A stretch of DNA of 64,000 nt, taken from NCBI GenBank assembly GCA_037042915.1, contig CM073193.1, forward strand, positions 4,836,001 to 4,900,000, written 5' to 3'. This stretch comes from Auricularia sp. M13 (taxonomy: Eukaryota; Basidiomycota; Agaricomycetes; Auriculariales; Auriculariaceae). The notes below the pieces were generated by a model, which was given only the letters and a program-made list of their open reading frames with translations, was not told the DNA's origin and did not search any database. How positions within the stretch are numbered: the first letter of the stretch is position 1; every line of letters starts with the position of its first letter. Shown in pieces: positions 1-63,995 of this stretch. The position numbers and the translations under genes were made by a program.

Positions 1-322
1 CTTTGAAGATTTTGCAGATTGACGCGCCGACACCTCCTTCGACGCGGACCTTCCGAACATAGATTCCGAATGCGGACTGTCGTTTCAGCACGGCGGCCAG
101 AGCACTAGATTGGGCCGGAGAGCGCAGGATGACCGTTTCGTAGAGCAACGGGGTCGCGACGCGCAACCAGCGCTTGCACACGAGCAGTACGGTTGACGAC
201 GACAAGGCGTCGCTCGCGAACGGCGACTTGCTGGCTGTCGTACATGCAAAATCGGCGTCTTCGACCGACAGAAAGTTGGCCAGAATGGTGGCTAGTGTCT
301 CGTCGGCTAGCTTGTGGGCCAT
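1..322 (-). CDS. F-box-like protein, N-terminal part, cut by window edge
   Basis: The reverse strand reads an open frame from an ATG at 322 (MAHKLADETLATILANFLS) to the window edge without a stop. The opening helix, the line VLLVCKRWLRVATPLLYE and the following leucine-rich start match the F-box-like family that is greatly expanded in Agaricomycetes; these proteins are thought to be substrate adaptors of SCF ubiquitin ligases. An in-frame ATG at 469 would add 49 residues. I prefer 322 because the family begins about there and the mirrored copy at 29346 starts with the same MAHKLADE. Only about 107 codons are visible, so the leucine-rich C-terminal part is outside the window. Confidence 0.6.
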   Translation of the reverse strand, partial: MAHKLADETLATILANFLSVEDADFACTTASKSPFASDALSSSTVLLVCKRWLRVATPLLYETVILRSPAQSSALAAVLKRQSAFGIYVRKVRVEGGVGASICKIFK

Positions 323-909
323 GGCGACAAAGAAGGGACGCGCCAACGGGATTTGCCGAAGGCGTGTCAAGTCCGCAACATCCCGGTCCGCAACCCCGAA
401 GTTCCCGCGCCCAGATCGTCGTGTAGTTAACTTCTTGGCCATATTGCGAACTTGGCTTGCATTGGCCATTGGATGATACCCTGCGATGTGCGTTCCCTGG
501 CTTGCCGCAATCCGAATCACCGACTCACTCGCGCCGCATACGTAATTGGAGCATCGCCTTTTGAGGCATGCTTCGTGTAGGCTTGGTGCACACCTTGAAC
601 ACGAGGGCCAGGCGTGGGCTGCCGTCTAAATTGCTGGGCCGGATCGTACGCATAAGTTGTCCAATATCACTGCCAGTCATGTCTCAGCTAGAGGTCGTCG
701 CCGCCTCGTCGCGCACCCGAAGTGTGCCTTTCAGTATCGCTCCAAAACAGAAGCATCCCATCGATCGTCGTCATCGGCATGGTCAGATCCTGCCGTCTCA
801 CGTAGCCGATAGCTTATCTCGTGGCCTCGCAACCATTCCGTTGTATGCGGAAAATTCGTATGTAATTGCTTAATTGATCATTGTTCTCTCGCTCTAAATC
901 TATGCACAC

Positions 910-1866
910 ATGATCCCTCCTCCACGAAGTGTCGACGCTGGACCGGGTCCTATATTAAGCAGACCTGTGGCATTTTCCCTGGATGCGCGGTCGACGCTTA
1001 AGAGGTCGTTACGCGTCGCAACTGAGCTTAGAACGACGCTTTCACGAATGCTTCGCATACTCAAGGCCGAGCGCGAATATATCACGGAGGATAACGCTCG
1101 CACCTGCCGGGAGCTGGCAGACAACCTCTCCTGCATCGCCGAAGGCACACGTGATGCCTTCAGCCACATCCACGGCACTGCCGAGGCGGTATGTCTTTAA
1201 ACCCTCGGCCCCCTTGGTCCGCTCCCTAAAGCAACATAGGTATCGCAGGACATGGCTAGTCATATTCGTCAAACCGCAGCTACATCCGTTCCCTGCTGGA
1301 TAAAGACTGCCCGCATTGGAAGCATATGCGTGTCGTTACCAGCGTTCGCTGCTGCCGTCCTTTCCGCCGTCTGGAACACGACACACCCTTTGCTCGCACT
1401 CATCATGGCCCTTGTCAGTGCCACTGCGGCGATGTGTGGCGGCATAGGGCCTTGTATTGCTCAATGTGCGTATGGACTTCGCCGACAAGTGCACATGCAT
1501 TGGATACGACTGACGGCTTCCGACCATTAGGGTACTGGGAGATGACCGACAAGAACCCTCCGCGCGCAGACATACAAGCTGTGCGCATAGAAACGCATCG
1601 ATTATGCCATGCACTGTCGCTGCTCGTGGAGTGGTGGTTCAAACTGGCTGCTATGGTCTATTGGCTTACCAAATTGACCGAGGGCCGTCGTACAACACAT
1701 ATTATGCAGGAACTAGTGACTATTAAACAACACCTTGACCGGTATCTACGAGAAGTGAGTATCAGTCCTCATGATACATGACATGCTCATGTGTACATAG
1801 ATGCAGGACATCCTCAGCTCCGTAGAAAGCGGAACGGGTATGCTAGGCGACGTGGAGATGGTCTGA
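910..1866 (+). CDS. Gene A, copy 1: helical protein with a hydrophobic hairpin (unrecognised family)
   Basis: Not recognised. The model joins 910-1188, 1249-1465, 1531-1754 and 1807-1866 (259 aa). All three introns are GT-AG and at the same positions and phases as in the paralogue at 27790-28969. The protein is mostly helical and polar, then has a strongly hydrophobic hairpin of about 45 residues (from ARIGSICVSLPAFAAAVLSA to about GGIGPCIAQ), then another helical segment. The paralogue has about 80 more N-terminal residues. Matching sequence is visible from 679 here, but that stretch is not open in one frame, so this copy may start at 910 or be non-functional. Its 3' end overlaps the convergent gene B by 53 bp. 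A membrane-associated role is inferred from the hairpin only. Confidence 0.5.
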
Positions 1867-2806
1867 AGTTCTGAACTTCACGGCGCGATAAGCGCTCGCC
1901 ATGAAAGTTGTATTCTGTATATGCCATCAATTCTTTTTGTATTTCATATGGAACGCCATGAACATACTTCATAGATCCGCTGAGGCTACGAGGTGTGCGC
2001 AAGATGGGCGGCTGAGGATGAGATAGGTCTTGCTCGTTCCGATAAAAAGGGTTCAGGAAGTCGAGATACGTATCGCCAAGCTGCTGGCAGGACTGGTAAA
2101 AGCGGGACAACTCTTCGTGACCGAAAGTGTAGCCCGAACCGGAGAAGAGTCCGTCTCGCTTCCTCCAGAATGCCTCAATGCGCTCCAAGCTCTGCATCAT
2201 AATTCCCAAATCTTCATGGACGCTAGCCCCTGCATTATCACGTAGTGACTCCGGGGGCATCGCGTGCGACGACACGGGCTGTGACGCAAATGTGCCGAGA
2301 TTGCGTAGGAAGGTCGCCACACCAGATGGGGAAGGACGGGAGCGGGCCGATAAAAAATGCAACAGAGACGCATGGAATTCTTCCCAAGCCGTCTGAGTCT
2401 CTTCCATAAGTGCACGATTTGTCGAACACCCGCTGAGGATTGATGCGACCATCGGCTCGAACCCTGCGGCGCCGCTATTCGAAGGATCGTTTCGGAGGGT
2501 CGCGCCAGCAGTGTAGACGGTGAGTGAGATGAGTCCTCTCGTGTCCGAAATGACGGCATAACGGATGTCGGAATACGCCCAGACGAGCCTTGCGCGGATT
2601 TCGAGGAGCTGCTGTCGTAAGGGCGCCGCCGCAGGATCCGTGTCTTCGGCCAAAGCAACGGCAGTGGCACGAACAGATTTTGCGACACGCGTCGCCGCGT
2701 CGGAAAGGTCTGTTGTTATAGGCCACAGGTGTTGAATGTCAAGAGGATCCTCTGATGTGCTCTTCATCGAAGTCAGTCCGAACGCATAGAAAGCGACGGC
2801 GGCCAT
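1814..2806 (-). CDS. Gene B, copy 1: helical protein paired with gene A (unrecognised family)
   Basis: Not recognised. A single 330-residue open frame from an ATG at 2806. It resembles the 298-residue paralogue at 26805-27701, for example in the segment SLERIEAFWRKRDGLFSGSG and in the block around LWPITTDLSDAATRV. It is predicted helical with no clear signal peptide or membrane helix. It has a 60-residue C-terminal tail that the paralogue lacks. The true start may lie further upstream: sequence matching the paralogue's MAHALS start is visible near 2862 but in another frame. It is convergent with, and overlaps, gene A, and both genes were duplicated together. That suggests, without proof, that the two products act together. 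Confidence 0.55.
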   Translation of the reverse strand: MAAVAFYAFGLTSMKSTSEDPLDIQHLWPITTDLSDAATRVAKSVRATAVALAEDTDPAAAPLRQQLLEIRARLVWAYSDIRYAVISDTRGLISLTVYTAGATLRNDPSNSGAAGFEPMVASILSGCSTNRALMEETQTAWEEFHASLLHFLSARSRPSPSGVATFLRNLGTFASQPVSSHAMPPESLRDNAGASVHEDLGIMMQSLERIEAFWRKRDGLFSGSGYTFGHEELSRFYQSCQQLGDTYLDFLNPFYRNEQDLSHPQPPILRTPRSLSGSMKYVHGVPYEIQKELMAYTEYNFHGERLSRREVQNFRPSPRRLAYPFRFLRS

Positions 2807-3250
2807 ACAGCTGGAGTGATTACTTCCACTATGCCGACGTCAGAACTTAATGCGTGTGCCATAGCCGTTGGGCTCGCGGGTGCTCCGATGGAGCTGGATA
2901 GTAGGCAAGAGGTGCCAACATGTCGCGGGATTAGACGAATGCTTCCGAGCGCAAGTGAACCACGTTCCGACAGCTCGGCGCTACGCGCCGGGCGACCCAC
3001 TGGATTGCATTTTACCTCCCCCCATGCCTTACACCATAATACCACATGAGGATACGGACAAATCTATGCAGAATCATCCATCTTCTAACAACTGGATAGC
3101 ACCCGATAATAAAAGCGCGGAGAGGCACACCAACTTGAAGAACTCTTAAGAACTTTAGACAGCCACTTTTGTCAGAAATTTATACTCAGAATTCATTCAT
3201 ACTATACTGCCATGATATATGTGCTGAAACGTATGAGAGACAGCTTACGC
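2807..3250. other. Gene-poor spacer inside the duplicated arm
   Basis: No convincing gene. The part nearest gene B is its probable 5' region and matches 26640-26830 in the mirrored arm. The part from about 3170 is AT-rich and matches the stretch after the tRNase Z fragment at 26405-26500, so it is probably the tRNase Z 3' untranslated region. Confidence 0.5.
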
Positions 3251-4497
3251 TTAAGTTGCGTCCCTCTTGGGAACGGTGACTGTCATTAAATCCCTCGCGC
3301 AATCGACTTCGCCCGCATTGTACGTTGACTTTGCAAGCGCGCAAATAGCGTTCATAATACGCAGGCTGGCCTCGGACTCGTCTCCAGGATAGCGCGCAGA
3401 GAAATGATTGAGCACGAGCCGCCGTGCGCCAACACGTGTCGCGAACGCGCCGGCCATCTGGGGAGTCGAGTGCCCGCGGCTCTTGGCGCGTTCCTCGACG
3501 GTCTCCGCGGTGTCCTCTTCCTTAGTCGCGGGGTCGACTCCGGGTAGGTGCGCGTTGGTCGCCTCGTGCACGAGCAGGTCCGCGTCCTGGGCGAGCGCCG
3601 CAATGGGCGCCGGGTCGTACGTGTCGCCAAGTACGACAATCTTGCGTCCCGGGCGACGCGCGGGTGGTGTTAGCAGCGTGCCGTCGGGCAACTCGACGTG
3701 CTCGCCGACTTGAACGCGCGCGAGAAGTGACATGGGCTGTTTGATGCCGGCTGCGCGCAAGGCTGTCGCGTTGCGCGCGATGTGTGGCGTATAGAGCGCC
3801 GGCTCCATCTTGCCCGGCACCGGCTGCTCGTGCACGACGTAGCCAACGCACGGCACGCTGTGCAACAGCGGCGCCGCGGACACGCGCAGCAACGGCGACA
3901 CGAAGATGTCTGGCCATGTGCCGTCCGCGGCCTGCGGGATGTCGCGCCCGTCGGGCAGCTCGCAGACGTGCGCGGGGAGGAGTGACCCTGCGTCCGTGCC
4001 GCTTGGCGGGTCGTGTGGGAAGCGCAGCTCGTGCACGACGTAGCGCCCTTCGAGCAGCGTGTGCGTGAAGTTGAGCGTTGCACGGACATAAGCGCGCGTG
4101 CCCAAGGGTCCGTAGATCTCGAACGGCTATAACAGCGCATGAACAACAGAGTTTCATGGTCGAATCTGGAGTGACTCACCGGCGCGCCTTCAGCTGCAGC
4201 GACCCGATCGTCCTCTGCGCCTCCTGCAGTGCCTCCTGCGCCGTTCAGAATGGCTGCCATGACGGGTGCAAGCCCAAAGATATGGTCGCCGTGCGTGTGG
4301 GTGATGAAAACTTTGCTAATACGGCCCATGCGGACATCGCGAGAGCGCTGAATTTGGTGCTGGGTAGCCTCGCCACAGTCAAATAGCCATGTGTCACCGG
4401 AGAGTTTCAGAGCAAGTGACGAGTGGTTGCGAGTCGAAGACGGCTGGGCAGAGGCCGTACCCAGGAATGTCAGTTCTATGGAGCTGAGCGACGACAT
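3251..4497 (-). CDS. tRNase Z (short form, ELAC1-like), tRNA 3'-end endonuclease
   Basis: Removes the 3' trailer from tRNA precursors. Two exons, 4180-4497 and 3251-4126, separated by a 53 bp GT-AG intron, give 397 residues, the size of a short-form tRNase Z. The metallo-beta-lactamase fold is visible: an N-terminal [19 protein letters not shown] strand-loop, the zinc motif [10 protein letters not shown] near residue 72, LGDT and HEAT motifs in the C-terminal half, HSTPQMAG, and the closing [10 protein letters not shown]. The start at 4497 gives the family-typical short N-terminus; an ATG eight codons upstream (4521) is also in frame. A decayed copy of the last hundred or so codons lies at 26103-26405, so this is the functional copy. 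It is divergent from the MIX23-like gene to its right. Confidence 0.93.
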
Positions 4498-48328: not shown

Positions 48329-48808
48329 TGTCACGGTGACTGCTATATCACTCTCCGAGACGACGCCCGAGGGGAAGGGATGAGTGGGGAGAGGGAGGCG
48401 CGGATAAGCGGTATGATAGACCAGACCAAACCTAAGGTACAAGAGGGGCGACGGCCCAGATATATATACTACGGAAGCAAGGCCGAGGGGACCCGCGGAC
48501 CAATTGCGCCACCGACCGGTTGCCACGCGGGCGCCACAGATCAGGCCGAAAGAGACCGCCGGGGCGTCGTCGGCGAGACAGGAAACCCGGGATAAATAGA
48601 GCCCAACCAAACCAGAAACATCCCGTCGTATTACCCTTCTCCTGGGAAGAGACCGAGGTACTCGCCGAGCGGAGAGACCGCTTGGACGCGCCGACGAAAG
48701 GGCCGCGGGGCCGGGCGCAAGGAGTTTGGGCGCCCGGACGAGGTGCGAGGGCCACGGGACGGCGAAATGAAACAGCGGGGGAGGAGGGACCCGACGAAGA
48801 CCGCAACA
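48329..48808 (-). repeat. LTR element 1, left LTR (3' LTR)
   Basis: 480 bp, TGTCACGG to CCGCAACA. It carries a TATATATA stretch near 48462 that could serve the minus strand, and GATAAATAG near 48592 on the plus strand that could start transcription towards the antisense gene. Confidence 0.9.
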
Positions 48809-49034
48809 TAACCCCCCTTCTAGCCGTCCAGTGGCCGAGGTGGGAATAGCCAGGGGAGGTGCGGGTTAGATCGGGCGTGGGGAGACGGACCATAGCGTGA
48901 CCGGGCCGAGCTCCATCCGCCGCGGGATCAAACTCTAAGCGTCAGATGCCGCGAAAGGCTCGGCCGTCGCCGTACACGAACCGCGGTACTTCTCGCTCTT
49001 CGTCTCCCCGCTTCCCGTCACCGTCCGATATCCC

Positions 49035-50297
49035 ATGACGCCCACCGCCGCCGACGGACTGACTGCGAAGCCTCTCGGCGAACTTCGGGACCTCAGGGAG
49101 CGGGTGTTCACGCTGCATGCCTCCATCCAGCGCCAACTGAACTTCGGGCACTACGCCGCGGACGCGGATGAGGAGAAGGCGCGGACGGTGCTTGCGTCTG
49201 CGGGCCAGCGGTTGGAGGCCATTGACGCCGAGGTGCGCCGACGCAACGCCGCGACCCGCAATCTGGAGACGGCGGCGTCTCTCCTCGGCATGACAGCAGC
49301 CTCGCTCCCCGTCGTGCCGAAGGTGGAAGGGGTTCGCCGCACGGGAACGACCTCCTCGACCGCGAAGGGCAAGGGCCCATCGGGAGCGGTCGCGTCTGGG
49401 TCGAAGCGGCCTTCGGACGTCGGCGCGCAAGGGACCGGCGACGAGGAGAAGGACGCGGTCGGGCCTCCTTTTAACACGGTACGTCCTGGCCAAAGGTCCT
49501 CTTGCTCCGGGGTGTATCCTGCGCTGACATCCTTCGTCCGGGTCCAGCCTTGTGAGCAGTGCGAGCGCTCCGGCCAGCCGTGTTTTCGACAAGTGTCCGG
49601 GTCGGCGACTGCCTGTGCTCGCTGCCACCGGACCCGCGTGGGGTGTTCTCACAGTGTCGGCCGGTCGGGCACATCGCGCAAGAGGGCGCGACAAGACGCT
49701 GACGTGGACGGCGACGACGGGGACGATCCGGACCAGGACGACGTGGTGGACACCGTCGGCGCGTCCGTGGCGCGGTCGCGCACACGCCGAAGGCTTCGGT
49801 CGCCGGGGACAGCCACCATGGCCGACCTCGAGGTCCTGGGCGACCGCATCGTCCAGGGTTCCAGCTGTCCGTCTCGGCGTTGAGCGCGCGACCTTCGCAA
49901 GTGGACGCAAGAGCTCGTCGATGACCGGTGTGCCCATAAGACGGTGCGCCTCGTGTCGCCGGGCGGGAGCGAGCGCGATACCGACTCCAATGACGGCCGA
50001 GCGGTGGAGGACGAGGCGGGGAGGTCGTTCACCGACGCGCCGACTTCCCCTGGCGCCGCGGGCGTGGAGGCGGAGGCGCCGGCTGGTCCTGTCGGCGTGC
50101 TTGCTGACTTCGGCGCCGACCTGGCCCTTCTTGGCGTGGTAGTACCGGGGGATGTGCGTCCGACACCCAGCTTTGCGTCGATGGAGGCGTCTGGGTCCGG
50201 ATCCGGATTCCTGCCACGCGTCCAACGGTCCGAGGGTCGGGATGCGTCTGTGATAGGGGAGAAGTCGGTCGATGCGGGCCAACCCATGGAGGAGTAA
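49035..50297 (+). CDS. Antisense Zn2Cys6-like protein of LTR element 1
   Basis: Runs opposite to the element's own genes. It starts at ATG 49035 (MTPTAADGLTAKPLGELRDL). A first exon of 148 codons ends at 49478 with a GTACGT donor. The second exon, from 49548, opens directly with the cysteine cluster CEQCERSGQPC, ten residues, CARCHRTRVGC: a CX2CX6CX10CX2CX6C pattern, within the Zn2Cys6 fungal binuclear-cluster consensus. A basic RKRARQ and a long acidic Asp/Gly run follow. The 3' end is unclear: the first frame stops at about 49883, and an acidic Ser/Gly/Ala-rich frame at 49944-50297 may be a last exon. The N-terminal part is helical. A DNA- or RNA-binding role is inferred from the cluster only. 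Confidence 0.6.
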
Positions 50298-50593
50298 GAC
50301 CGTGTCCGGGTACGATTTGGGTAGTGGTGTGGAGGCTCGTAAAATATGTAAATAGAGAGGCGGAAAGACGAGCATAAATACGGGGTATGAGAAACGACCG
50401 GGACCGTGACTGTGGAGAGCATCCGACCGAAGCAGCGTCCGACCGAGGTAGGGTCCGATTTTGGGCACGGTCGCCGAGGGGGAGGGAACGACGGGTGGCG
50501 TCACCTGTACGCCAATAGATATCGACAAAGAAGGGCGGTTTCAGCTTCGCAAAGCGTGCTGCTGTACAAGGCAGGGGCGACCGTCCGGAGCGT

Positions 50594-51409
50594 TCAAAGA
50601 CGGTGGGCCGGGCCGGGGGACGCGATCCGCAGGACCAGGGCGTCGTCGGCGTACGTGGAACGATATTCGTGGACGTCCCAGACAAGGCACGCCGTAAGCC
50701 GAACAACCTGGAGGGCTCGCTCCGTCGTAGGCGACGTGAGGAGATGAGGGCCGAGGCGAGGTGGGAACGAGAAGACCACTAGCTCGGTGCAAGCCCGTCG
50801 ACCTCGGTCATTGCGCACGACGGTCGGGAGTACCCAGTAACGCGAGATATCGAGCGGGAGATGTCTCGGGGCAGCGAAGCGGCCGTAGTGAGTGAAGCGG
50901 TCTAGCATCCAGAAGAACGGTTGGGGAGGGGCCACGAGCATGGAGATGTTGAGCTGGGTGTCTCCCGGGTCCGGCGACCGGATACGAGCGCGAAGGGGCA
51001 TGAGCTCCAGCGGGGGTGTGGCCGGGCGCGCGTCCTCAAGTTCGGGCGACTCGTCGTCGGCGAGGGGTGACTCGCCGGTGCTGATGGGTGATTCGCCGAA
51101 CAGCTCTTGGGATCCGTCGCCAAAGTCCTCGCCGAGGTCCATGTCCGCATCCTGGTCCAGGTCCTGTGCGGCGCCTTGGTCCTCATTTGGCTCCGGTGGT
51201 TCGGCGTGGTACTCCTCCACGAGTCCGGTTCCGTCCAGGTCGGCGGCCAGTTGCCAGCTAGCGTCCTCGGGGGGAAAGCCCATCCATTGGACGAGATACT
51301 GGGGAACTCCTCGGTGTACGCGGTGATCCAGGACTGCCGCCGGTATGTATTGAGGGTTAACTATGGTCTCGTCGTACTGGGACATTTTGTGAGCGTTCGG
51401 TCCGAACAA
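50594..51409 (-). CDS. Chromodomain-bearing frame of LTR element 1
   Basis: A 271-codon sense frame. Near its start YIPAAVLDHRVHRGVPQYLV and QWMGFPPEDASWQLAADL form a chromodomain (aromatic cage region and WE-type helix), as at the end of chromovirus integrases. An acidic Glu/Asp/Pro/Ser linker and a unique C-terminal region follow (YWVLPTVVRNDRGRRACTEL). It is the only clear remnant of the element's coding part. Chromodomains guide integration to particular histone marks. Confidence 0.65.
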   Translation of the reverse strand: MFGPNAHKMSQYDETIVNPQYIPAAVLDHRVHRGVPQYLVQWMGFPPEDASWQLAADLDGTGLVEEYHAEPPEPNEDQGAAQDLDQDADMDLGEDFGDGSQELFGESPISTGESPLADDESPELEDARPATPPLELMPLRARIRSPDPGDTQLNISMLVAPPQPFFWMLDRFTHYGRFAAPRHLPLDISRYWVLPTVVRNDRGRRACTELVVFSFPPRLGPHLLTSPTTERALQVVRLTACLVWDVHEYRSTYADDALVLRIASPGPAHRL

Positions 51410-52055
51410 AGGGGCGTGTCGGGGAAAAGGGGAAAGAGGCGTCGGTCTGGCGGCCGATCCGGATTATATGGTGTATGTGTCGTAAGCGTTGATGCGTGGG
51501 GATGATGGGGGTCACGATCCGAGGAAGATGATGTGGATGCGCCGCGCGCACCACGGGGGGGAACTTGCTCTCGGGATGCGCGGAGGGTGAGGTTCTGGAG
51601 AGAGGGGTCGGCCGTGGGAGGTTTAGAGGTTGACCGAGGGGTGGGGACGCAGCGGGCGCGTTCGGCGAGTAGGGCTTGTGGGGGGGTGGTCTCGCCGCGG
51701 ATGACCGGGCTCTGATGAAGGGGAGAGATCAGGAGCCGGTGATGGAATGAGCTTTCGGATTTGACGACCGTATGGGTCTGGAGGGGTCCTCGTTGGCTGA
51801 GTGCCTGACCAGAAGGCCAGTGGGCAAGGCTCGGCGTCCGGAGGGTGGGTCCTGCAGGGTCCTGGTGGGCCGATGAGTGGGCGCGGCGGTCGCGACGGGT
51901 CCTCGTCGACGCGAGGGGTCTCCTAGCCGGTCCGAGGGGTCGGATTCCTTCCTGGACCGAGCAACGCCGACCGAACGGTTCGCCCGGATTGGAAGGGTGG
52001 TGAGTAAGGGGTATGGGGATCTCGAGCGTCGGGAGGGAGGGTAGGTTTGGTCTTA

Positions 52056-52535
52056 TGTCACGGTGACTGCTATATCACTCTCCGAGACGACGCCCGAGGG
52101 GAAGGGATGAGTGGGGAGAGGGAGGCGCGGATAAGCGGTATGATAGACCAGACCAAACCTAAGGTACAAGAGGGGCGATGGCCCAGATATATATACTACG
52201 GAAGCAAGGCCGAGGGGACCCGCGGACCAATTGCGCCACCGACCGGTTGCCACGCGGGCGCCACAGATCAGGCCGAAAGAGACCGCCGGGGCGTCGTCGG
52301 CGAGACAGGAAACCCGGGATAAATAGAGCCCAACCAAACCAGAAACATCCCGTCGTATTACCCTTCTCCTGGGAAGAGACTGAGGTACTCGCCGAGCGGA
52401 GAGACCGCTTGGACGCGCCGACAAAAGGGCCGCGGGGCCGGGTGCAAGGAGTTTGGGCGCCCGGACGAGGTGTGAGGGCCACGGGACGGCGAAATGAAAC
52501 AGCGGGGGAGGAGGGACCCGACGAAGACCGCAACA
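52056..52535 (-). repeat. LTR element 1, right LTR (5' LTR)
   Basis: 480 bp; matches the left LTR except for five transitions, all of which look like loss of CpG in this copy. Confidence 0.9.
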
Positions 52536-52540: not shown

Positions 52541-55111
52541 ATGGTCAACCATTACGAGGTACGCATGTCTCAGGCTCTCTGGAAAGGCTTGTTCTCCTCA
52601 ACGGAGACGGGTAGAGCTTCAATGCCTCCAAAGATAATCTCGCGAGACTTCAATCGACCATCGAGTCTCTGTCGGATGTGATACGCAAGAATTACGCGCA
52701 TGATGTTCACGTTGGCACCGCATTGAATGAGCAAGTGCGCAAGCTCGTGCGGTACGCTTCTCGATCGGCATGGCCGTATTACTAGCGCTGTCTCACTGCT
52801 ATCCTGTAGGCTGCTTTTGCGCACGGTGATTCGTCTGTATCTCGTCAGAGCCGCGCCCTCTCTCAAGCGCTTTATCGCTGTGGCCACGGTCTCGCAAATC
52901 ATCGCCGACGAGAAGCGTGCGTTAGACGAAGCCAAAGGCGAACTTAATGTATGCCCTTTGCGTATCTGGTTGACCTATCGCTCAACATTTCGTAGCTGGC
53001 CTTGGGCTTCTCGACCAACGCCGGCGTCTCCGAGATCTCCTCCAAGATGGCCACGGGGAGCGAGGTCGACGATCTTGCGGGCCACGTCAAGGCCCTTGCC
53101 GACCGTGTGAATATTGAAGGAGATAGGTTGGGCGTCGTTGCTGCTGAGGTGGGCGACTTGAAGAATGTCGCAGGTGCGCTGAGTCGTAGTGTTGCTTTCA
53201 AGTTGCTTTCTTCGGTCTAACTTGATTGTGGGACATCTAGTCGTCGGTGTTGCCGCACAAGTGAATGACCTCGACGCGCATATCAAGGCTGTCTCGGACT
53301 GCATCCGCGCCGATGGGCAGGTTCTTGGAGTCGTTGCTGCCAATACGGCGCACTTGAAGGAGGTTGCCGGTACGCCCTCCGAGTTGCAGGTTACAGCGTC
53401 CATAATCCTGACTGCAGGTATGTAGATACACGTGACCTCCGACAATGGCTAGGAGTCGATCCCACATTTGAAGGTCGACAACGTCAGCTTCTGAAGCGAT
53501 GCGTCGGAGAACCGCGCTGGTTCTTGAAGGGGAAGAGTTTTCTTGCTTGGAATAGCGGAGAGGCAGGCGTTTACTGGGTTTCCTCAAGCCGTATGTATGC
53601 ATTCCACCAAATGATATAAGGCTTACTCATGTATCCCGCACATCGGGATGCGGAAAGAGCGTCCTTCTGTAAGTGATTTATCTCCATTTGCCTTCATCTG
53701 CTGACCACACCGCGTCCATAGTTCGGCAATTATCGATCATTTGCAGCCGGAGGAACGAGTCTTCTTTCACTTTGACATGCGCAACCAGGCGCAGCAACCG
53801 AGGCTCCGAGACTTCCTCGCCGCACTTGTTTATCAGTTGGGGAACCGCTTGCATGCGTATCCTTCGGAACTCCTGCTCGCTCACGAGAGGGGACTAGAGA
53901 TGCAGGCGTCCGAGGAGGTCCTTCGTGACGCGGCGATAGCGATGCTCAATTCCCGACCATGGATCGTGGCCATCGATGCGCTCGACGAGTGTCCCGAAGT
54001 ACGTCAGCAGTGGGAGACCGTAGTCCCCCTTCTCGAGCAACTCCGGGGCACAAAGGCTCGCATCATCGTCACTAGTCGCAACGAAAACAATGACTTGGTC
54101 CAATTCATGAGGAAATTCGCTACGCATAGGCTGCATCTGAACAACAGCGTCCACCACCAGAAGGCGATCAACCGTTTCATCTATGCGCAACTCTACACGC
54201 CAGGAAAGTTTCCCGTATGGTCCAACCAACAGAAGAACAATGTCGCGACACTACTCAAGCAAAAGTCCGGTGGCATGCGAGTAGCATTGTTAATCAGATC
54301 TACCCTGGTCTTAACCCGCGCAGGTTCCTTTGGGTCTCCCTTCAGCTCGATCAGATGCGAAAGGCCCTCCCACACTCGGTCGATAAGATGCTTAACGAAG
54401 TCCCCGTTACAATCCACGACACGTATCGCATGATTCTCGAGGGCTTCACTGACTCGAAATTCGTGGCGAATCCCGCTGCGCACGTTCTGCAATGTGTTGC
54501 ATTATCTCCCAGAAGCATGTCTCCCCACGAGGTTTCTGAGCTTCTCCTCTCTTTCGCATTTCCACCTCTGGAAACCTCGCCTCAGACGAACCCGCCCTTC
54601 CAAAGACTCCTCCTTCCTCACGAGTCTCTACCGGATAACATGCCCGACCCTGAGGTTCTGATCCTCTCATATCTGCCGGCCTTTCTGCAGATTACGGACG
54701 ACGCTGAGCACGGCAAGGTCGTCCGTTTCAACCATCTCTCTGCTGTGGAGTACCTACAGTCGGAAGACTGTAGGAAGAAATCCGACAAATCTCTGGTTCC
54801 TCTCTATGCGTTCAATGACGGGATGGCCCACACGACGTGGCTGCGCATTTGCTTGACCATCTTTGAAAGAAAGATGTCGCTCAAGCTCACCGATGGTGCT
54901 AAATCCCAATGGGTTCGGCATATCATCGGTCGCATGGAGGACCGCCTCAATGGAGCAGAGTTCCTGACGAGGTACCTTACGCCTGCACCCCCCTCACTCA
55001 CGGAGCTCTTCGTCTTCAGAAACAAACGAGGCAGCACCCCGTTCCACCGTGCCTGCGCTTCAGGACCGCTACACCTCGTCAAATGGTTTCTTGCTCAGTA
55101 CAAGCTCAACG
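52536..55111 (+). pseudogene. NLR gene 2, middle part: head domain, NACHT, start of ankyrin repeats
   Basis: Resumes at MVNHYE and continues through helical exons (QSTIESLSDVIRKNYAHDVH, FIAVATVSQIIADEKRALDE) and two similar exons at 53060-53170 and 53245-53370. A P-loop SGCGKSVLL follows near 53650. After an intron the NACHT domain continues: VFFHFDMRNQAQQPRLRDFL, Walker B WIVAIDALDECPE, IIVTSRNENND. A winged-helix-like region reads RFLWVSLQLDQMRKALPHSV and PVTIHDTYRMILEGF. The ankyrin start is GSTPFHRACASGPLHLVKWF. It is of the NACHT-ankyrin class common in fungi. One junction near 54280-54320 leaves the two flanking exons one base out of phase, so this copy may have decayed besides being split by mobile elements. 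Confidence 0.82.
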
Positions 55112-55768
55112 CTATCCTCCTTATTCTGCACAAAAATAAAAACCTCCAAATGAGACCTTCCTCCACCCTGAGAAACTATTCCATCCTAGAATTGATGTCC
55201 ATCCCAAAATAAGCGCCCACCCTCCAAATGGGGATGTGTCCATCCAAACTGGGCGATGTCCATCCCAAATAAGCGCCCATCCTTCCAAAATGACCCCCCT
55301 CCAATTTTTGTGAGGACATCCATCCCAGCCATGCTTTCCATCCTAGATATTATATAAGCGGTCCTCATCGGCAGAGCTGAGAATCTCGGACTGAGCTCGA
55401 GCCCGAACTCCGGATGCTTCCGAGTATGCGGCTTCGAAGCCTGAAAAGCTGCATACTCGGAAGCATCCGGAGTTCGGGCTCGAGCTCAGTCCGAGATTCT
55501 CAGCTCTGCCGATGAGGACCGCTTATATAATATCTAGGATGGAAAGCATGGCTGGGATGGATGTCCTCACAAAAATTGGAGGGGGGTCATTTTGGAAGGA
55601 TGGGCGCTTATTTGGGATGGACATCGCCCAGTTTGGATGGACACATCCCCATTTGGAGGGTGGGCGCTTATTTTGGGATGGACATCAATTCTAGGATGGA
55701 ATAGTTTCTCAGGGTGGAGGAAGCTCTTATTTGGAGGTTTTTTTATTTGTGCAGAATAAGGGGGATAG
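55112..55768. mobile_element. Fold-back element 1, 657 bp near-perfect palindrome
   Basis: Two arms of about 323 bp (55112-55434 and 55446-55768) around a 10-11 bp centre. The central 240 bp of each arm are identical; only the outer 60 bp differ at several sites. The ends read CTATCCTCCTTATTCTGCAC and the inverse. The arms contain repeats of CATCCCAAAATAAGCGCCCA. No coding capacity beyond mirrored frames. It interrupts the ankyrin region of NLR gene 2 between a QYKLNA segment and the repeat that resumes at 55769. Superfamily not identified; no clear target duplication found. Confidence 0.85.
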
Positions 55769-55921: not shown

Positions 55922-56610
55922 TATCCTCCTTATTCTGCACATTTAAAAAAACCTCCAAAAAGAGGTGTCCTCCTCTGTCAGAGAACATCCTTCAAATTCT
56001 GAGAGCCTTCCATCCAAGAAATGAGTTCCATCCCAAATTGAGTGTGGTCATCCAAACTGGGAAATGCTTCCATCCAAGGCAGCGCATGTCCATCCCAAAA
56101 TAAGCGCCCACCCTCCAAGGCAGTGCGCTTCCATCCCAAAATAAGCGCCCATCCATCAAGCCAGAAAGCTTCCATCCAAGACAGAATGCTTCCATCCTAA
56201 AAATAAGCGCCCACCCTCCAAGGGAAAAGGTGTCCATCCAAGCTGAGTGCCTTCCATCCACGCTGACCTTGCTTTCTAATTTGTTCATAAGCATATTCAG
56301 ATGCAGAGATGTTACATAAGCAGGATACTCGGCCAATTGTACAACTCTATTAACCAAACCATCCCTGCTTATGTAACATCTCTGCATCTGAATATGCTTA
56401 TGAACAAATTAGAAAGCAAGGTCAGCTTGGATGGAAGGCACTCAGCTTGGATGGACACCTTTTCCCTTGGAGGGTGGGCGCTTATTTTTAGGATGGAAGC
56501 ATTCTGTCTTGGATGGAAGCTTTCTGGCTTGATGGATGGGCGCTTATTTTGGGATGGAAGCGCACTGCCTTGGAGGGTGGGCGCTTATTTTGGGATGGAC
56601 ATGCGCTGCC
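55922..56610. mobile_element. Fold-back element 2, interrupted by the Gypsy element
   Basis: The same family as element 1: it starts TATCCTCCTTATTCTGCAC, and its arms carry the same AATAAGCGCCCA repeats with TTCCATCC units. Left arm about 55922-56325, then a spacer of about 35 bp; the right arm begins at about 56361. The right arm breaks off at 56610, exactly where the Gypsy LTR starts. The part matching the left arm before position 56080 is missing and should lie beyond the right LTR outside the window. Confidence 0.8.
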
Positions 56611-57334
56611 TGTTAAGCCTGCTGTGCCTTGGGGGTTTGGTTGCAAGGATAGTCGAACGTCCGGGCGCAGAGAACACTCGAACGAACAACTAGAGCCTTC
56701 GGTGCGTTATTGAGCACACCGGCTACGTCGAGTAGCACGACCGAAGGGACCGCGAGCAGCAGAGGACTCAGACGAGTAAGTCGGGCGAGGGAAGAACCCA
56801 GAGGCGAAGTCGAGAGAGAGAGATAGAGCGTGCGAGGGGCACGACTATGTCGATTTCGTAACTGGGGAGCTAGATACAAAGTCGAGGGTCTTTTATACCT
56901 GGGGAGGTGATCCGATGTACTCGGAGTGTATCCTAGAGACGAAGGAGAGGGGGCCTCAGATCAATAGAGATCGTCGTCATCGGCCGATAGGATGAGTAAG
57001 AGCGAGTGGGTAAGGTATCGGGGGATCGGGCGAATGACGAGAGGCGAATGACTAAGACGAGTGGAGCGAACCGGATATGAACACTATCGATACAGTAGGG
57101 ACAAGGCGAGTTAGGTGGATGTATGCGAGTAAGGGGAGAAGCTAGAGAAGTGAGGGAGAGGTCTAGAGGTAGAGGACGATGAGGAGAACATATCCCGAGC
57201 ATATGAACACGAGGGGAGATAAGCCGGGTATTCGGGAGCTTGACCGAGTTGACCGAGTTGGCCGAGTGACGTAGAATGACGCCGAGTGATGCCGAGAGCA
57301 CGTGGGGTCCGCGGACCGGGGCACGGGCGTAACA
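56611..57334 (-). repeat. LTR element 2, left LTR (3' LTR)
   Basis: 724 bp with 5 bp inverted ends TGTTA/TAACA. GTATAAAAG on the minus strand near 56890-56898 is a good TATA box for the sense transcript. Confidence 0.85.
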
Positions 57335-57530
57335 GTATCCCCCCTTTACGTCCTGAGCCCACGAAGGACTGCAGCAACGCAAGGTGAATACGAAAATGAG
57401 ATAGCACGCACTCGAGTCCGAATGGGGCCAAAAGATCGGGTCGGGTCGGAACGGGTCGGACGCAGATTAAAAGTGGTTGGGTCGGGAGTTGAATCGTCGA
57501 ACCACTCTTGTCTTCTGCCCGCCGCCCACC

Positions 57531-58770
57531 ATGCCGCGATACGAATCGCTCGAGGACGTCGCCGCCGCGTACGACCGCAAGACCGTCGGCGCCGTCATGA
57601 GGTCGCTCGAGGACGACCCGACGATGGAGGCGCTGATCGCAGCGCACGAGGACGCGAAGCGGACGCTCGGCGGCCTACAGCAAGAGGCCGTCGACGAGGA
57701 GGACCTCGACGCGATCGAGGCGTTCAGCGCGCGCAGGCGCCAGGCGAAGGCCGAGCTGCGCCTGGCGGCGCAGCGACGCTTCGGGATGCTGGCCGAGCGC
57801 GTGGCCAAGATCGCGGCGGACGCGGGCGCCAAGGCGACGAAGAGCCAGGCGTCGCCGGCGAAGGCGCCGACCACGAGCACGAAGGCGCCGGCGAAGGACG
57901 CGAGGGAGACCGAGTCGCCGCCGAAGAGGCGGAAGGCCATGGAGGTATGGGTCGAGTTACCTCGACTGCGCGATTTGGCTAAGGTGCGCTTTTGTTTTAG
58001 GTCGATGTCGCGAAGACGACTCAGGCGCCGCGCAAGGTCGCGCCGAAACCCGCGCCGGTCGCGGTCGCTCGCTCGCCGTCGCTCGGGGCGGGCGAGACGC
58101 TCGAGGACGACGACGAGGTCGAGGAGCTCGCGAGCCCGGTGGCGCCGGCCGCGAAGCCCAAGCCCAAGCCCAAGCCGCGCGCGGGCGGCAAGTTCACGGA
58201 CAGGTGGCCGGAGGTGCCGTACGGGACGCGGTTCCCGAGTCAGGTGAGTTGTCGGTTGTTCGTGTTTTGCTCGCCGGGACTGACGACGAGTAGTGCGAGG
58301 CTTGCGCCAAGCGCGGCGGCCAGTGCGTTCGGCAGCACCGGTCGAATACTTGCACCGCGTGTCATCAGACCCGGGGCAAGTGTACGCACTCGGGCAAGCC
58401 GTTCGTGCCGCGCGGCGAGAAGAGGGCGGCGTCGCCGAGTGCGTCGCCCGAGCGCCCCAAGAAGGTGCGGATCGTCGAGGGGACGACGCTGGGGACGAGG
58501 GCGGCCGAGGATCGCGCGAAGACGGCCGAGCACCGCAGGGTCGTGGAGAACCACGCCCTGTGGACGAACAATTCGGTGCACAACATCGAGCGGATGTTGT
58601 ACCGGATGCTGCAGTGGCAAGCGCAGCAGTTCGGCCAGTCGATCGACGAGTCGATCGACGATCCGTTCACGAGCGAGGAGGAAGAGGAGGCCGAGGAGGA
58701 GGTCGAGGAGGAGACCGAGGAGGAGGACGAGGAAGCGGTCGAGGAAGCGACCGAGGACGCGGACGAGTAG
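57531..58770 (+). CDS. Antisense spliced gene with a Zn2Cys6-like cluster in LTR element 2
   Basis: Runs opposite to gag-pol. Three exons (57531-57944, 58001-58243, 58294-58770) with GT-AG introns, all phase 0, give 377 residues with no break. The N-terminal 110 residues are helical (MPRYESLEDVAAAYDRKTVG onwards), followed by an Ala/Lys/Pro-rich linker with PPKRRK. The third exon opens exactly at the cluster CEACAKRGGQC, eight residues, CTACHQTRGKC (CX2CX6CX8CX2CX6C). Then come a basic region, a helical segment (HRRVVENHALWTNNSVHNIE) and a strongly acidic Glu-rich tail. The family consensus for Zn2Cys6 proteins is met. Introns can persist in a retroelement only if they lie antisense to the genomic RNA, as here. 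It corresponds in place and plan to the antisense gene of LTR element 1. Confidence 0.8.
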
Positions 58771-58890
58771 GCGATAGGATAGAGTAGTAGCGGGTGCGAC
58801 CAAAGTCGCCCAAAAATGTAATAAATGACTGTTTCTTGGAATCGGGTGAAAAGCGAGTGAGCGAAGGAATAGCGAGTGAAAAGCGAGTGC

Positions 58891-61800
58891 TTAGATGTTT
58901 TCGAATTTCTTGAGGATCTGCTGGAATTCTTGATAACTGCCGGGAGCGCTGGGATTTGCAGCATAGAAGTCTTGAACTGCTTCTTGCGCATGTTCGAGAT
59001 TTTCCGAGCCCATCTCGGTGGTCTCGGGGTCGTCGGGCGTGCCGATGTGACCGATCCAGCGAATGCGAAAACGAAGGCGCGAGTGACGATGGCGATTGTC
59101 GATGCGTACGCTGAGTACTTCGAGCTCGTACTCCTGCTCGCCGTCGACGACGACGGGCGGAGGAGGTTCTTGACGTTGACCGGGGAACGCTTCTCGAGGG
59201 TGGGGTTCGAGTTGCGAGACGTGAAAGACCGGATGTACGCGAGCGAGGTAGTCGGGTAGGCTGAGGGTGAACGATTGCGAGCTAGGTTGATCGACGATCG
59301 GGAACGGGCCTAGGTAGCGATCGGCGAGTTTGCGGGTGGGCTGTGTCGTCTTGATGTGTTCCGAGAGGACGTAGGCCATGTCGCCGACCTTGAAGTCAGG
59401 CGGGGGAGTGCGTCGAGCATTCGCAGATGCAGTGTAACGTTTCTGAGCGGCAGCGATCTGCTCTTTCAGGACGTCCTGCAGTTCGTGGATGTCGACAGCG
59501 AAGTCGCGGGCGCGAGCAGAGGCGACGTCGCGCTCGGGGTAGACGGAAATGTTCGGGTGAAAACCCTTGTTGGCGAAGAAAGGCGAGACACCAGTCGAGT
59601 CGTTCGGGGTGTTGTTGTACGTGAATTCGGCGAGAGGGAGTAGCTCGGACCAGTTGTCCTGCTCGTAGTTGCAGTAGAGACGGAGGTACTGCTCGAGCGT
59701 CTGGTTCGTGCGTTCGACTTGACCGTTCGCCTCCGGGTGGTGACCCGAGGTGAAGTGCATGGTCATGTTGAGGAGCGAGCCGAGTGCGCGAAAGAAGCGG
59801 GAGACGGTCGGAGCCGCGGTCGGTAGAGACGTGCGAGGGAGCGCCATGTTTGGCGAAGACGTGGATGAGGAAGAGACGCGCGAGTTCTTCGGAGGTGATC
59901 TTGCCCTTGGTCGGGACGAAGATACCCTGCTTCGAGAGGCGATCAATAATGACGAGGATCGCGGTGTAACCGTTGGACTCAGGGAGTTGTTCGATGAAGT
60001 CCATCGAGATCGAGTCCCAGTTGCGAAGCGGAATCGGGAGCGGTTGAAGTCGACCGTACGGCTTGTGTCGTCGAGGTTTGCTGCGCCCACAGGTGACGCA
60101 GGCCTGGACGTAGGTACGAATCGAGTCGCGCAGGTCGGGCCAGTAGTACTCGCGGGCGACCATCTTGAGTGTCTTGTTCTGACCCGGATGGCCAGCGAGC
60201 GGGTGATCGTGCTTTTCGCGAAGGATACGAAGGCGACAATCGAGAGCGTTCGGTACGTAGATCCTGCCCTTGAACAGCAAGAATCCATCGTCCGAGGCCG
60301 ACCAGTTGATCGCGTCATCGGTGCCGAGTTTCGAGCGAATGTCGAGAGCGAGTTCGTCCGAGTCGTACGAGGCGCGAATGTCATCCCGAATGGACTGAGT
60401 GTCCATGATCGTGGCTGCGCGAAGGAAAGTCTCTTCAGCATACGTCGCGCGAAGGGAAGCGGCGAACTGTTCCGAAGTAAAAACGGGTCGGAAGTTCTGC
60501 GGGTTTGCGCTGGCGTAGCCACCATCCCCCTTTTGAGATAGACGTCGTGGCGGCGAGTGAGAGCATCGGGTTTGCCGCCGAGTCGACCGGGTCGAAAGCG
60601 AATGAGGAGGTTGAAGGTAGAAAGGTACTCGGACCAGCGAGCTTGCCGACGAGTGAGCATCTTCGTGGTGGAGAAATACTCGAGGTTCTTGTGGTCCGTG
60701 ACGACGTCTATTGGGGTCTCGGCCCCTTCGAGGTAGTGTCGCCATAGTTCGAACGCCTCGAATATCGCGAGTAGCTCCTTGTCGTGCGTGTCGTAGTTGA
60801 GCTCGGTGGGAGTGAGCGTGCGCGAATGGAAAGCGACGGGGTGAACAGAGCCGTCCGGGAGGACGTGCGAGAAGATCGCCGCGATCGCGTAGTCGGAAGC
60901 GTCAGTCTCGACGACGAGGAAGAGCGGGATCGAAGTGGTGAAGGACGGGAGCGCAAGTGAACGCCTTCTTGAGCTCGTTGAACGCAGCGAGGCATTGCGG
61001 AGTGAAGTTCCACGTTGCGGTCTTTCGAGTGAGACGAGTGAGCGGGACGACGATATCGGAGTAATCGTAGATGAATCGTCGATAGAAGTTCGCGAAGCCG
61101 AGGAACGACTGGATGTCGCGAACGTTGCGAGGAACGGGCCACTCGAGGAGGGTGGCAATCTTCTTCGGGTCCATGCTGATGCCCTCGGGGCTGATGATGT
61201 ACCCGAGGTACTCGATGGTGTCAGCATGGAACTCGCACTTCTCGGGCTTACAGAAGAGGTCATTCTCCCGCAGCCGTCGAAGGACCTCTCGAACGTGTTC
61301 CTCATGCTTCGAGGGATCGTCCGAGTAGATGAGGATGTCGTCGAGGTAGACGGTGACCGTGACGTCGAGGAGATCGGAGAAGATGTCGTTCATGAAGCGC
61401 TGGAAAGCGGCTGGAGCGTTCGTGAGACCGAAAGGCATGACGAGATACTCGTAGGTGCCGTAGCGCGTTCGAAAGGCAGTCTTCCACTCGTCGCCGGCCG
61501 CGATGCGAACGTTGCTGTATCCGACACGAAGATCGAGCTTGGTGAACTTCTTGGCGGTGCGAAGGCGGTCGAGCGTGGACGAGATGAGCGGAAGCGGGTA
61601 CTTGTCCTTCCGAGTGATCTTGTTGAGCCCACGATAATCGACGCATAGGCGAAGAGAACCGTCGGCCTTCTTGACGAAGAGAACCGGGGCGCCACCCGGG
61701 GACGACGAAGAGCGAATGTGTCCTTTGCTGAGGTTATCCTGAATGTACTCCCGAAGCGCGAGTTGCTCGGGCTCGGAGAGCGAGTAGATCGGACCGGATG

Positions 61801-62600
61801 GGAGAGGCTTGCCTTCTTCCATGTCGATCTTGAGATCGTACGGCCGATGTTCAGGGAGTCGGTTCGAGGCCTCCTTTGAGAAGACGTCGAGGAACTCGTG
61901 ATAACACTCGGGGATGCCTTCGCCGGTTCCCGAGGCCGGGTTGGCAGACGCAGAGCGAGCGGGCACCGATGGATCTCGAATGTAGATGGCCGAGACCATC
62001 GAGCCGCGAAGTCGACGAGAGGTGTCGAAGGCTGCGGCGCCGATGATCTTGATGTCGACGCGAGCAGCGGCCGCGCGAAGGGCGGTTTCGTCCATCGGCG
62101 GTTCGGGAGGCAGAGTACGTGGCGCGGGAGGAGGTGACGACGGAGTCGGAGGAACCGAGTCGAGCGAAAACCCAGGGACGAAACCCGAGGGATCCGAGGG
62201 CGAGACACGAGTGGGGAAAGAGATGCGGTGATGGAACCAGTCAATCCTAGGATTGTAGCGGGCCAACCAGCGGTATCCCAGCACTGCAGAGCAAGTCGGA
62301 TCTAGAGTGGTGAGGAGGAAGTTGATGATCATCGAAGTTCCGCAAGGGAAGCGGACGGGAAGCGACACGTATTTGGAGATAACACCGCGATAGGAGCCGT
62401 CGAAGAGCCGAAGGCGAAGCGGTTGATCGAGAGACTTTTGAGGGAGTCGGAGACTCTCGGCGAACTGAGTATCGAGGAACTGATCTTCGGAGCCGGAGTC
62501 GACGAGTGTGCGAAAGGATGGGACAGCGTCGGAGGAGAGGACGACGATGAGAGCGTCTTGATCGGTGAGCGCGGCAGCGTTCAACCGAGTGTAAGGCATC
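58891..62600 (-). pseudogene. Pol region of LTR element 2 (protease, RT, RNase H, integrase, chromodomain)
   Basis: Domains in sense order from right to left. Protease with a DSG site is near 62500. RT is at about 61100-61850, with LDDILIYSDD as the catalytic motif and YLGYIIS after it. RNase H is near 60600-60900 with ETDASDYAIAA. Integrase has its His/Cys zinc finger near 60080-60200 and core to about 59700, and a C-terminal GPFPIVD/FHVSQLEPH region is near 59200. A chromo-like domain follows near 59000-59130. The order PR-RT-RH-IN-chromo defines a Ty3/Gypsy chromovirus. The copy appears broken. Confidence 0.85.
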
Positions 62601-62619
62601 TTGGGCTTGACGCAGTTGG

Positions 62620-63995
62620 CCCTAGATGCCCGTGGGGAACTGCCCGTTAGTTTTTCGCTTCCGCCGGGCAGAAGCGGCGGCGCCCGAGGGAGCGGGAGCC
62701 GGCGTCGAGGAAGTCGCGGGTTGAGCCTTAGCGGCGCGACCCTTCGACTCGCGATTGTGAGCGGCCTTGCGGCACTCGGACGCGGTGTGGCCGGCATGGC
62801 CACAGTAGAGGCAGAGGTTGTTATCGAGGCGACGGCGTCGTTCGGCGTCGTTGAGCTTGCCGTTCGAGTTGAGGTTCTTCGCGACGTCGTCCTTCGACTT
62901 GGTCGTGGTCTTCGAAGACGAGCGGGCCGAGGTCGAGGACTGACCCCTCGAGTTCGAGTGGTTGTTCGAGTTGCCGTTGTTGCCGTTGTTGGAGCGCGCG
63001 TTGGACTTGGTGTTCGATCGGGAGCCCGATTGAGGCGTCGCGGTCGAGGTGGTCTTCTGCGCTTTTCGGGGTTCGTTCGCGTGCTCGAGAGCTTGCTCGT
63101 CCTTATCGATCCAGTAGTTGGCGTCGATGCTAAGAGCGAGCGCAGCGAGTGGCGTCAGAGAAGCCGGGCGTTGAGCTACTTGAGCAGCGAAGACAGATTT
63201 GATGCGGCGAGGGAGTCCGCGATAGAATTGCGAGGCGAGTGCAGCGTCGTCCCAGCCGAGCAGTTTGGCGTATTCGTCGAACTGGAGCTTGTAGCGGGCG
63301 ACCTTGCCGTTGTCGGCCATTTGCAGTCGTCGAATCTTGACTTCGGCGCGTTCGCGTTCGTTCGTGACGCCGAAGGTGATCGTGAGTTCGTTCTTGAATT
63401 CGTTCCAGTCTTCGAGGAACTCGTAACCGGGAGGCGGATTCGGGACGAGAGGAACGTAGCCGCCCCACCATTCCTTCGCCCGACCCGAGAGATAGGTCGC
63501 GGTGAAGAGAATCTTCTCGCGGGACGTCTGGTACTTCCGAGGGTTGGCGAGGAAGTAGGTTTCGCAGTCGATGAGGAATCCGCGAAGTTTGTTGGCGTTT
63601 TCGCCGTCGAATTTGTCGGGTTTGGCGGCGTCGATGCGAGAGCCGCTGTCGTGTCGACGAAGTAGACACGAGGGACGTTGTCGTGTTGATCGTGGAATTG
63701 TCGTTCGCGATCGACGTCCGAGTCGTAGCCGTCCGACGGAGGGTCGAAGGGAGGTCCCGGGGGACCAGGAGGATCGTTACCGCCACCACCGCCCCCACCG
63801 CCGCCACCTCCGGGAGGAGGGTTCCGGAGGGTGCGAGCCGTGCGAGTGGTGCGAGTGGTGCGAGTGGTGCGAGTGGTGCGACGAGGGCGAGGAGCACCTC
63901 GATGACCACCACCGCCACCGCCGCCTCCGCCGCCTCCGCCTCCACCGCCGCCACCTCCGCCGCCTCCTCCGCCACCCCGCCGCCACGCCGGGGCG
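62620..63995 (-). pseudogene. Gag region of LTR element 2
   Basis: Capsid-like helical part followed by a Ser/Asn/Thr-rich linker and the zinc knuckle CLYCGHAGHTASEC (CX2CX4HX4C) near 62790-62840. The N-terminal end is dominated by glycine-type triplet repeats (GGT/GGC runs at 63780-63990) and a short tandem repeat at 63835-63885. Reading is not continuous in one frame. Confidence 0.75.

Follow-up and report, generated by a model that had tools for sequence, protein, structure and literature searches.

A Ty3/Gypsy retrotransposon in the genome of Auricularia sp. M13 almost certainly carries, between pol and its 3' LTR and on the strand opposite to gag-pol, a protein-coding accessory gene that bears introns, is inherited through retrotransposition, is under purifying selection as judged from its aligned copies, and has a homologue in a second element. 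The gene occupies at least 40 loci, retains GT/AG splice signals in 36/36 aligned copies, and shows constraint that is specific to its reading frame, and it is therefore more than a product of chance. The best explanation as a whole, in which this accessory gene also has a role as a nuclear regulator of its element, is given a probability of about 0.6.

Structure of the antisense gene

The window is the whole stretch of 64,000 nucleotides that was analyzed, and positions given without a further label refer to it. The antisense gene (57531-58770, + strand) has 377 codons in three exons and is organized, together with its flanking signals, as follows.

57466..57473, + strand: TATA-like ATTAAAAG, 65 nt upstream of the ATG; putative antisense promoter
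57531..57944, + strand: exon 1, 138 codons; charged, with a KRRK-type stretch at its end
57945..58000, + strand: intron 1, GT-AG, phase 0, 56 nt; donor GTATGG, branch-like CTAAG
58001..58243, + strand: exon 2, 81 codons; Pro/Lys-rich linker
58244..58293, + strand: intron 2, GT-AG, phase 0, 50 nt, branch-like CTGAC; abuts the first Cys codon
58294..58770, + strand: exon 3, with the Cys6 cluster, a helix-like stretch (by eye), an acidic tail and the stop TAG
58294..58383, + strand: Cys6 cluster CX2CX6CX8CX2CX6C, residues 220-249; begins at the first codon of exon 3
58820..58825, + strand: AATAAA polyadenylation-like signal, ~50 nt downstream of the stop

The KRRK-type stretch of exon 1 is one that we take to be NLS-like. 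A first-pass annotation, made from the sequence alone, had described 377 residues in three exons, phase-0 introns and the cysteine cluster, and its coordinates proved to be exact. It was also right to place the gene on the strand opposite to gag-pol and in the interval from the end of pol to the 3' LTR, as the pol stop lies at 58891-58893 and the LTR at 56611-57334. The GC content at third codon positions of the gene is 93%, the region has long open frames on both strands, and a 399-codon ORF on the minus strand overlies the gene. In all copies considered for the flanking signals (31/31, with nine truncated copies left out), TTAAAA is present within 120 nt before the ATG and AATAAA within 120 nt after the stop. 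Because the entire leader is conserved among copies, the conservation of TTAAAA argues only weakly for a promoter. A promoter scan of the leader found none, its model being of bacterial type and uninformative for this leader.

The host Gypsy element

The element that carries the gene has the following parts, some of which lie beyond the window in the continuing contig.

56606..56610, no strand: target-site duplication CTGCC; the other copy is at 65230-65234, outside the window
56611..57334, - strand: 3' LTR, TGTTAC...CTTAACA on the minus strand; identical to 64506-65229
57335..57347, - strand: polypurine tract AAAGGGGGGATAC, adjoining the 3' LTR
58891..63154, - strand: pol, with protease, RT, RNase H, integrase H2C2 and a C-terminal SH3_Tf2-1
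62622..63776, - strand: gag (Retrotrans_gag, Pfam 1.9e-14)
64506-65229: 5' LTR, outside the window, in the continuing contig

LTRs, a target duplication, gag, RT, RNase H, and integrase are thus all present, as in Ty3/Gypsy elements. The two LTRs are identical across 724 nt, and the insertion is therefore young. In the window copy, pol runs through two alternating frames with three switches: RT is in the first frame, RNase H in the second, the integrase H2C2 and core regions again in the first, and the integrase C-terminus in the second. Integrase_H2C2 is matched with a Pfam E-value of 5e-19, the match of the integrase rve core falls below its Pfam cut-off, and the CCHC matches in gag are sub-threshold only (zf-CCHC_5, E 0.037). 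At the C-terminus of pol, no Pfam Chromo match was obtained at E up to 10, and SH3_Tf2-1 (a Tf2-1-like SH3) was matched instead; in a comparison of this C-terminus with PDB sequences, the only match was a weak one to MPP8 (E 1.1). The label of chromovirus for the gene-bearing element is not proven.

The surroundings of the insertion contain further repeats and open frames. Two near-perfect hairpin elements, at 55112-55768 and 56077-56611, have arms of 323 and 248 nt that are 98 and 100% complementary, respectively; the Gypsy element is inserted at the end of the latter, and the matching sequence restarts inverted past the far LTR. The interval 53705-55212 holds a NACHT-like ORF (NPHP3_N, Pfam 8.1e-15), as well as a second ORF that has a sub-threshold ankyrin match and extends into the first hairpin element.

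Copies of the gene and retention of its introns

The DNA of the gene matches at least 42 places in the 52-Mb genome, corresponding to at least 40 loci, two of which are matched in two pieces; this count is a lower bound, as the best 40 of 57 candidates were scored. Within the fetched stretches, the LTR edge and leader adjoin the gene in 38/40 copies, the pol tail lies beside it in 37/40, and LTR edge, leader, and pol tail are all present in 35/40. The reverse check, which covered the best 40 of 63 candidates for the pol tail, found the gene within 2 kb and on the same strand in 37/40 pol-tail matches, and within 10 kb of 39/40. By these linkage counts, the accessory ORF belongs to most copies of the family. 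At one Gypsy copy (G000 C10:1998387-2005154), the pol tail and the antisense gene are split apart by matches to the short second element described below.

For comparison of sequences, 36 of the 40 copies were aligned; four that are partial, deleted, or interrupted (L037, L041, L042, and L043) were left out, and in L037 intron 1 is partly deleted. All 36 aligned copies retain GT/AG at both introns, the donor GTATGG of intron 1, and CTGAC of intron 2, and 35/36 retain CTAAG of intron 1, the remaining copy being without that stretch. Between these signals the intron sequence varies, the acceptor of intron 1 occurs in two main forms, and intron variants are common to many copies. All 40 fetched copies were also searched for exon-exon junctions, and none was found. 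The claim of the first-pass annotation that the introns survive reverse transcription is thus borne out, with both introns in every aligned copy and no junction among the 40, and such survival through retrotransposition is expected if the genomic RNA contains the introns in antisense orientation. Among the 36 copies, the mean pairwise difference at codon positions 1, 2, and 3 is 0.036, 0.029, and 0.067, respectively; in introns 1 and 2 it is 0.13 and 0.095, and over the 60 bases on either side of the gene it is 0.036 upstream and 0.10 downstream.

Purifying selection on the encoded protein

Selection was assessed by placing substitutions randomly on sites of equal base and CpG context in 1000 permutations, and variants with a minor count of at least 4 were treated as common. 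The permutations ignore the tree of the copies, and the resulting z-values are therefore only indicative. Frame constraint in other copies had been proposed beforehand as a check on the gene, and the frame is constrained: 26/69 common variants are non-synonymous vs 53.6 expected, a value as low being reached in 0/1000 permutations. The depletion persists with CpG sites left out (24/55 common variants non-synonymous vs 45.8 expected). For variants with a minor count of 2-3, the corresponding figures are 48/87 vs 57.7 expected, and for private variants of the gene they are 190/280 vs 193.7 expected. Since the depletion is found in common but not in private variants, the element gene is selected as a protein, and the earlier suggestion of selection is upheld in the form of purifying selection on the protein across copies. 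Even so, private variants cannot serve as a strictly neutral reference, because fewer of them than expected are non-synonymous both in the pol tail and in the second family's first exon (see below).

The signal is carried by exon 3, in which 10/37 common variants are non-synonymous vs 28.7 expected, and by exon 1 (8/19 vs 14.7 expected). Constraint on exon 2 is not significant (8/13 common variants vs 9.5 expected), and there is no clear constraint on the acidic tail, where 11/16 shared variants change the protein vs 11.8 expected. All six cysteines are retained in 36/36 copies; at three, the codon alternates between TGC and TGT. A six-frame comparison, based on unfolded counts, found the plus frame to be the most depleted, followed more weakly by the minus frame whose third positions coincide with its own. 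The 399-codon minus-strand ORF has no overall depletion, as 60/86 variants are non-synonymous in its frame vs 61.3 expected. Over exon 3, non-synonymous variants of the minus ORF are even in excess (28/31 vs 22.1 expected), whereas those of the gene are depleted (8/31 vs 23.3). Over exon 1, depletion is observed for the minus ORF (9/17 vs 13.1 expected) as well as for the gene (8/17 vs 13.6) because third positions coincide there, and it is therefore exon 3 that tells the frames apart.

Constraint on the pol tail is stronger than that on the gene, with 1/26 common variants non-synonymous vs 17.0 expected, and its private variants are depleted too (52/99 vs 65.4 expected). The antisense gene diverges faster than pol, and is less constrained. 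By overall frame, the gene is intact in 16/36 copies, or in 14/36 if each exon has to keep its own frame, and exon 3 alone is open in 29/36; the pol tail is in frame in 20/36, in a set that overlaps with that of the gene but differs from it, the copies in which the pol tail is incomplete having been dropped. The gene had been described in the first-pass annotation as unbroken within a broken pol region, which is accurate for the window copy but does not extend across copies (16/36 genes vs 20/36 pol tails). Similarly, the contrast cannot be taken as a sign of special function, since it is pol that is more constrained. Judging from these copies, nothing sets the antisense gene apart in how well it is preserved after insertion.

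Relatives of the antisense gene

A second, shorter LTR element in the same window contains a homologue of the gene.

48329..52535, - strand: second short LTR element; target duplication TTCAG, LTRs of ~480 nt that are 99% identical
49035..49883, + strand: Cys6 homologue in the second element; ATG at 49035, cluster from 49551
50594..51463, - strand: sense chromodomain ORF in the second element (Pfam Chromo 1.6e-9)

The polypurine tract of this element is on the left, as in the Gypsy element (by eye), and its Cys6 gene is antisense and lies beside the tract, which is the same place as that of the Gypsy element's gene. No gag-pol was recognized in the second element, and none of seven further minus-strand ORFs matched a Pfam family with an E-value of 0.1 or less. 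The frame of the homologue stops at 49883 in the window copy and continues in another locus, L044, where positions 97-4323 form a second element of the same kind and of about equal length. The Cys6 proteins of the two families align with an hhalign E-value of 7e-7, and their homology exceeds the cysteines, as 0/100 and 0/1000 shuffles with fixed cysteines aligned as well; the tail past the cluster could not be aligned from one family to the other. When the element families were compared by tblastx, the numerous matches were short and scattered; they were judged to be low-complexity noise and were set aside.

The chromodomain region of the second element has 27 genome matches, 23 of them full length, and the element has thus multiplied; it is presumably a non-autonomous family. 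Across 22 copies, shared variants of its Cys6 gene are non-synonymous in 22/48 cases before the cluster (32.5 expected) and in 13/33 cases from the cluster onward (23.0 expected). Private variants are depleted before the cluster (46/85 non-synonymous vs 56.2 expected) and show no clear depletion after it (18/31 vs 20.7 expected).

A single-copy relative was found ~25 kb from a contig end (L045 1569-2405; G000 C1:9395168-9396004). It has a Cys6 cluster, an acidic tail, and a 60-nt intron that ends right before the first Cys, and no repeat was found within the 4.4 kb examined around it. In comparison with the antisense gene, 1/1000 shuffles with fixed cysteines aligns as well, although on the cluster alone the link is weak (9/100 shuffles as good). 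This gene may be a source of capture or a domesticated element gene.

With an E-value limit of 1, a third repeated Cys6 family (L047, L048, and L049; G000 C3:2501583-2512320 and others) gave 43 matches, 33 of them below 1e-30; it is partly arranged in head-to-tail units of ~3.47 kb. The family matches Pfam Zn_clus with 22.0 bits (cut-off 21), and its intron seems, by eye, to end just ahead of the cluster. A link of the antisense gene to PF00172 by way of this family is not supported, because the alignment was no better than 25/100 shuffles with fixed cysteines. A further weak and distant match, L046, was discarded, being without a Cys6 frame.

Identity of the cysteine cluster

Zn(2)-Cys(6) domains follow the spacing rule CX2CX6CX5-12CX2CX6-8C, and the spacing of the cluster fits this rule. 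The antisense protein resembles the Zn(2)-Cys(6) domain (PF00172) in this spacing and in the basic and acidic stretches that flank the cluster, and differs from it in having no Pfam match: Zn_clus was not matched when the entire protein was searched with an E-value limit of 1, nor when exon 3 was searched with a limit of 10. Therefore, the original description of the gene as Zn2Cys6-like stands with regard to cysteine spacing but not with regard to membership in Pfam Zn_clus. The search with the entire protein, to the same limit of 1, matched neither bZIP nor any other Pfam family. In the genome, PF00172 has 115 matches at E up to 10, many of them above the cut-off, and none is on the loci of the antisense gene family (by eye). 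A search of PDB sequences with the cluster returned nothing below E 0.15, the best match being a ribosomal protein, and among the 14 pattern matches from a scan of IMG/VR none is a relative.

Binding sites in the LTRs, including those of the CGG type, were considered and rejected as evidence. The LTRs of both element families have three same-strand 9-mers in common, including CCGCGGACC, vs 3.5 expected from shuffles; CGG-CCG pairs number 3 and 4 vs 3.8 and 3.4 expected, and 4 and 10 vs 8.2 and 8.0. The pairs are not clearly enriched in either LTR. Separately, a 12-nt palindrome, GGTCCGCGGACC, is present at 57306-57317, close to the end of the 3' LTR, and shuffling would lead one to expect 0.11 of these; this was one of several statistics tried, and the palindrome is a possible protein site.

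Proposed role of the protein and alternative explanations

In the mechanism proposed here, the antisense mRNA would start in the leader between the 3' LTR and the ATG, where the TATA-like ATTAAAAG is found, would be spliced, and would end at the AATAAA before pol. The protein would then enter the nucleus by means of its KRRK stretch, its Cys6 cluster would bind metal, and it would contact DNA or chromatin and regulate the element, similarly to HTLV-1 HBZ or to the Grande and Retand proteins. As a first guess, the protein may tune how the LTR is transcribed, or how the element integrates or persists in chromatin, a guess that is based on the acidic tail and on the chromodomain partner in the second element. 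The chance that the protein is a nuclear regulator of the element, binding metal as well as DNA or chromatin, is put at about even.

A different function for the same protein would be to work inside the particle or to help bring the cDNA into the nucleus, for example by acting as a nucleic-acid chaperone, or by carrying the pre-integration complex to chromatin as an adaptor. A small, basic-acidic protein with a metal cluster would suit such a function, as would a gag in which CCHC matches are only sub-threshold, and the second element, which keeps the gene and a chromodomain ORF and has no recognizable gag-pol, may supply a targeting module in trans. However, antisense expression, uncoupled from that of gag-pol, would be odd for a particle component, and the acidic tail also speaks against it; both are arguments rather than tests, and a function in particles or import is considered unlikely. 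It has also been proposed for retroelement antisense transcripts, in the accessible text of PMC7264820, that they form dsRNA or trigger silencing, or that they interfere with sense transcription, and if the antisense RNA itself acted in one of these ways then the protein would be incidental. This is improbable, given that selection is observed on amino acids and on splice signals (0/1000 permutations, cysteines in 36/36 copies, GT/AG in 36/36).

Two further explanations would deny the gene any use to its element. In favor of a host gene that was captured by transduction and is simply along for the ride is the single-copy relative L045, with its intron ending right before the first Cys and an alignment equaled by 1/1000 shuffles. 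Yet the gene is present in nearly all copies examined and was constrained during its spread, a homologue is found at the same place in another element family, and the link to L045 is weak on the cluster alone; a useless passenger is thus a very doubtful account of the gene's present state. Capture is plausible as the origin of the gene, and the transfer may also have run the other way, as a domestication. Similarly, a third-position GC content of 93% and long open frames on both strands are what would be seen if a chance frame with a cysteine motif were merely kept open by high GC, but this explanation is refuted by the frame-specific constraint, the splice signals, the invariance of the cysteines, and the constrained homologue, and its probability is negligible.

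Comparison with known antisense genes

Antisense accessory genes between pol and the 3' LTR are described, in the accessible text of PMC7264820, for plant elements and for Boty, and the function of the plant genes is reported there as unknown. The antisense protein of Grande is nuclear according to the available parts of PMC7264820 and PMC11963269, and that of Retand (TRP28) is predicted to bind DNA (available text of PMC11963269). The gene described here is like those of Grande and Retand in place, strand, and presence in most copies, and differs in its protein, which has a Cys6 cluster, whereas none is named for the plant proteins in the available text; in the main text of the Retand paper, the words "intron" and "zinc" are absent. 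In the Boty-like retrotransposons of Botrytis cinerea, brtn is an additional antisense gene (available text of PMC7264820, and of PMC8365987, which cites Zhao et al. 2011) and is thus likewise an extra antisense gene of a fungal LTR element, the comparison being by description only.

Among viruses, the antisense genes of HTLV have spliced transcripts and mostly nuclear products, several of which lower LTR activity (available text of PMC10186651), and hbz of HTLV-1 and the APH genes of HTLV-2, -3, and -4 resemble the present gene in being antisense. HBZ is a bZIP protein, whereas the antisense protein here has a Cys6 cluster, a distinction made by Pfam. The gene hbz starts inside the 3' LTR, whereas transcription here would start at the TATA-like site between LTR and gene. 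A spliced Zn2Cys6-like antisense gene of a fungal element was not found in the accessible open-licence literature, including PMC3248453.

A wider reading, which is tentative, is that fungal LTR elements acquired, and retain by selection, an independent spliced antisense transcription factor module, made up of a Zn2Cys6-like cluster and an acidic tail, that would regulate them as HBZ does, and that an element lacking gag-pol, with only this module and a chromodomain protein, spreads by means of it as a two-gene satellite and manipulates chromatin or its helper. The copies in one genome show that an antisense, intron-bearing accessory gene of a fungal retrotransposon is selected as a protein. 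The question of its function is directly testable because the protein is short and has a metal cluster, a homologue is available in an element without recognizable gag-pol, and there is a single-copy relative. Some of the Zn2Cys6-like "hypothetical proteins" of such fungi may thus be element genes or their descendants.
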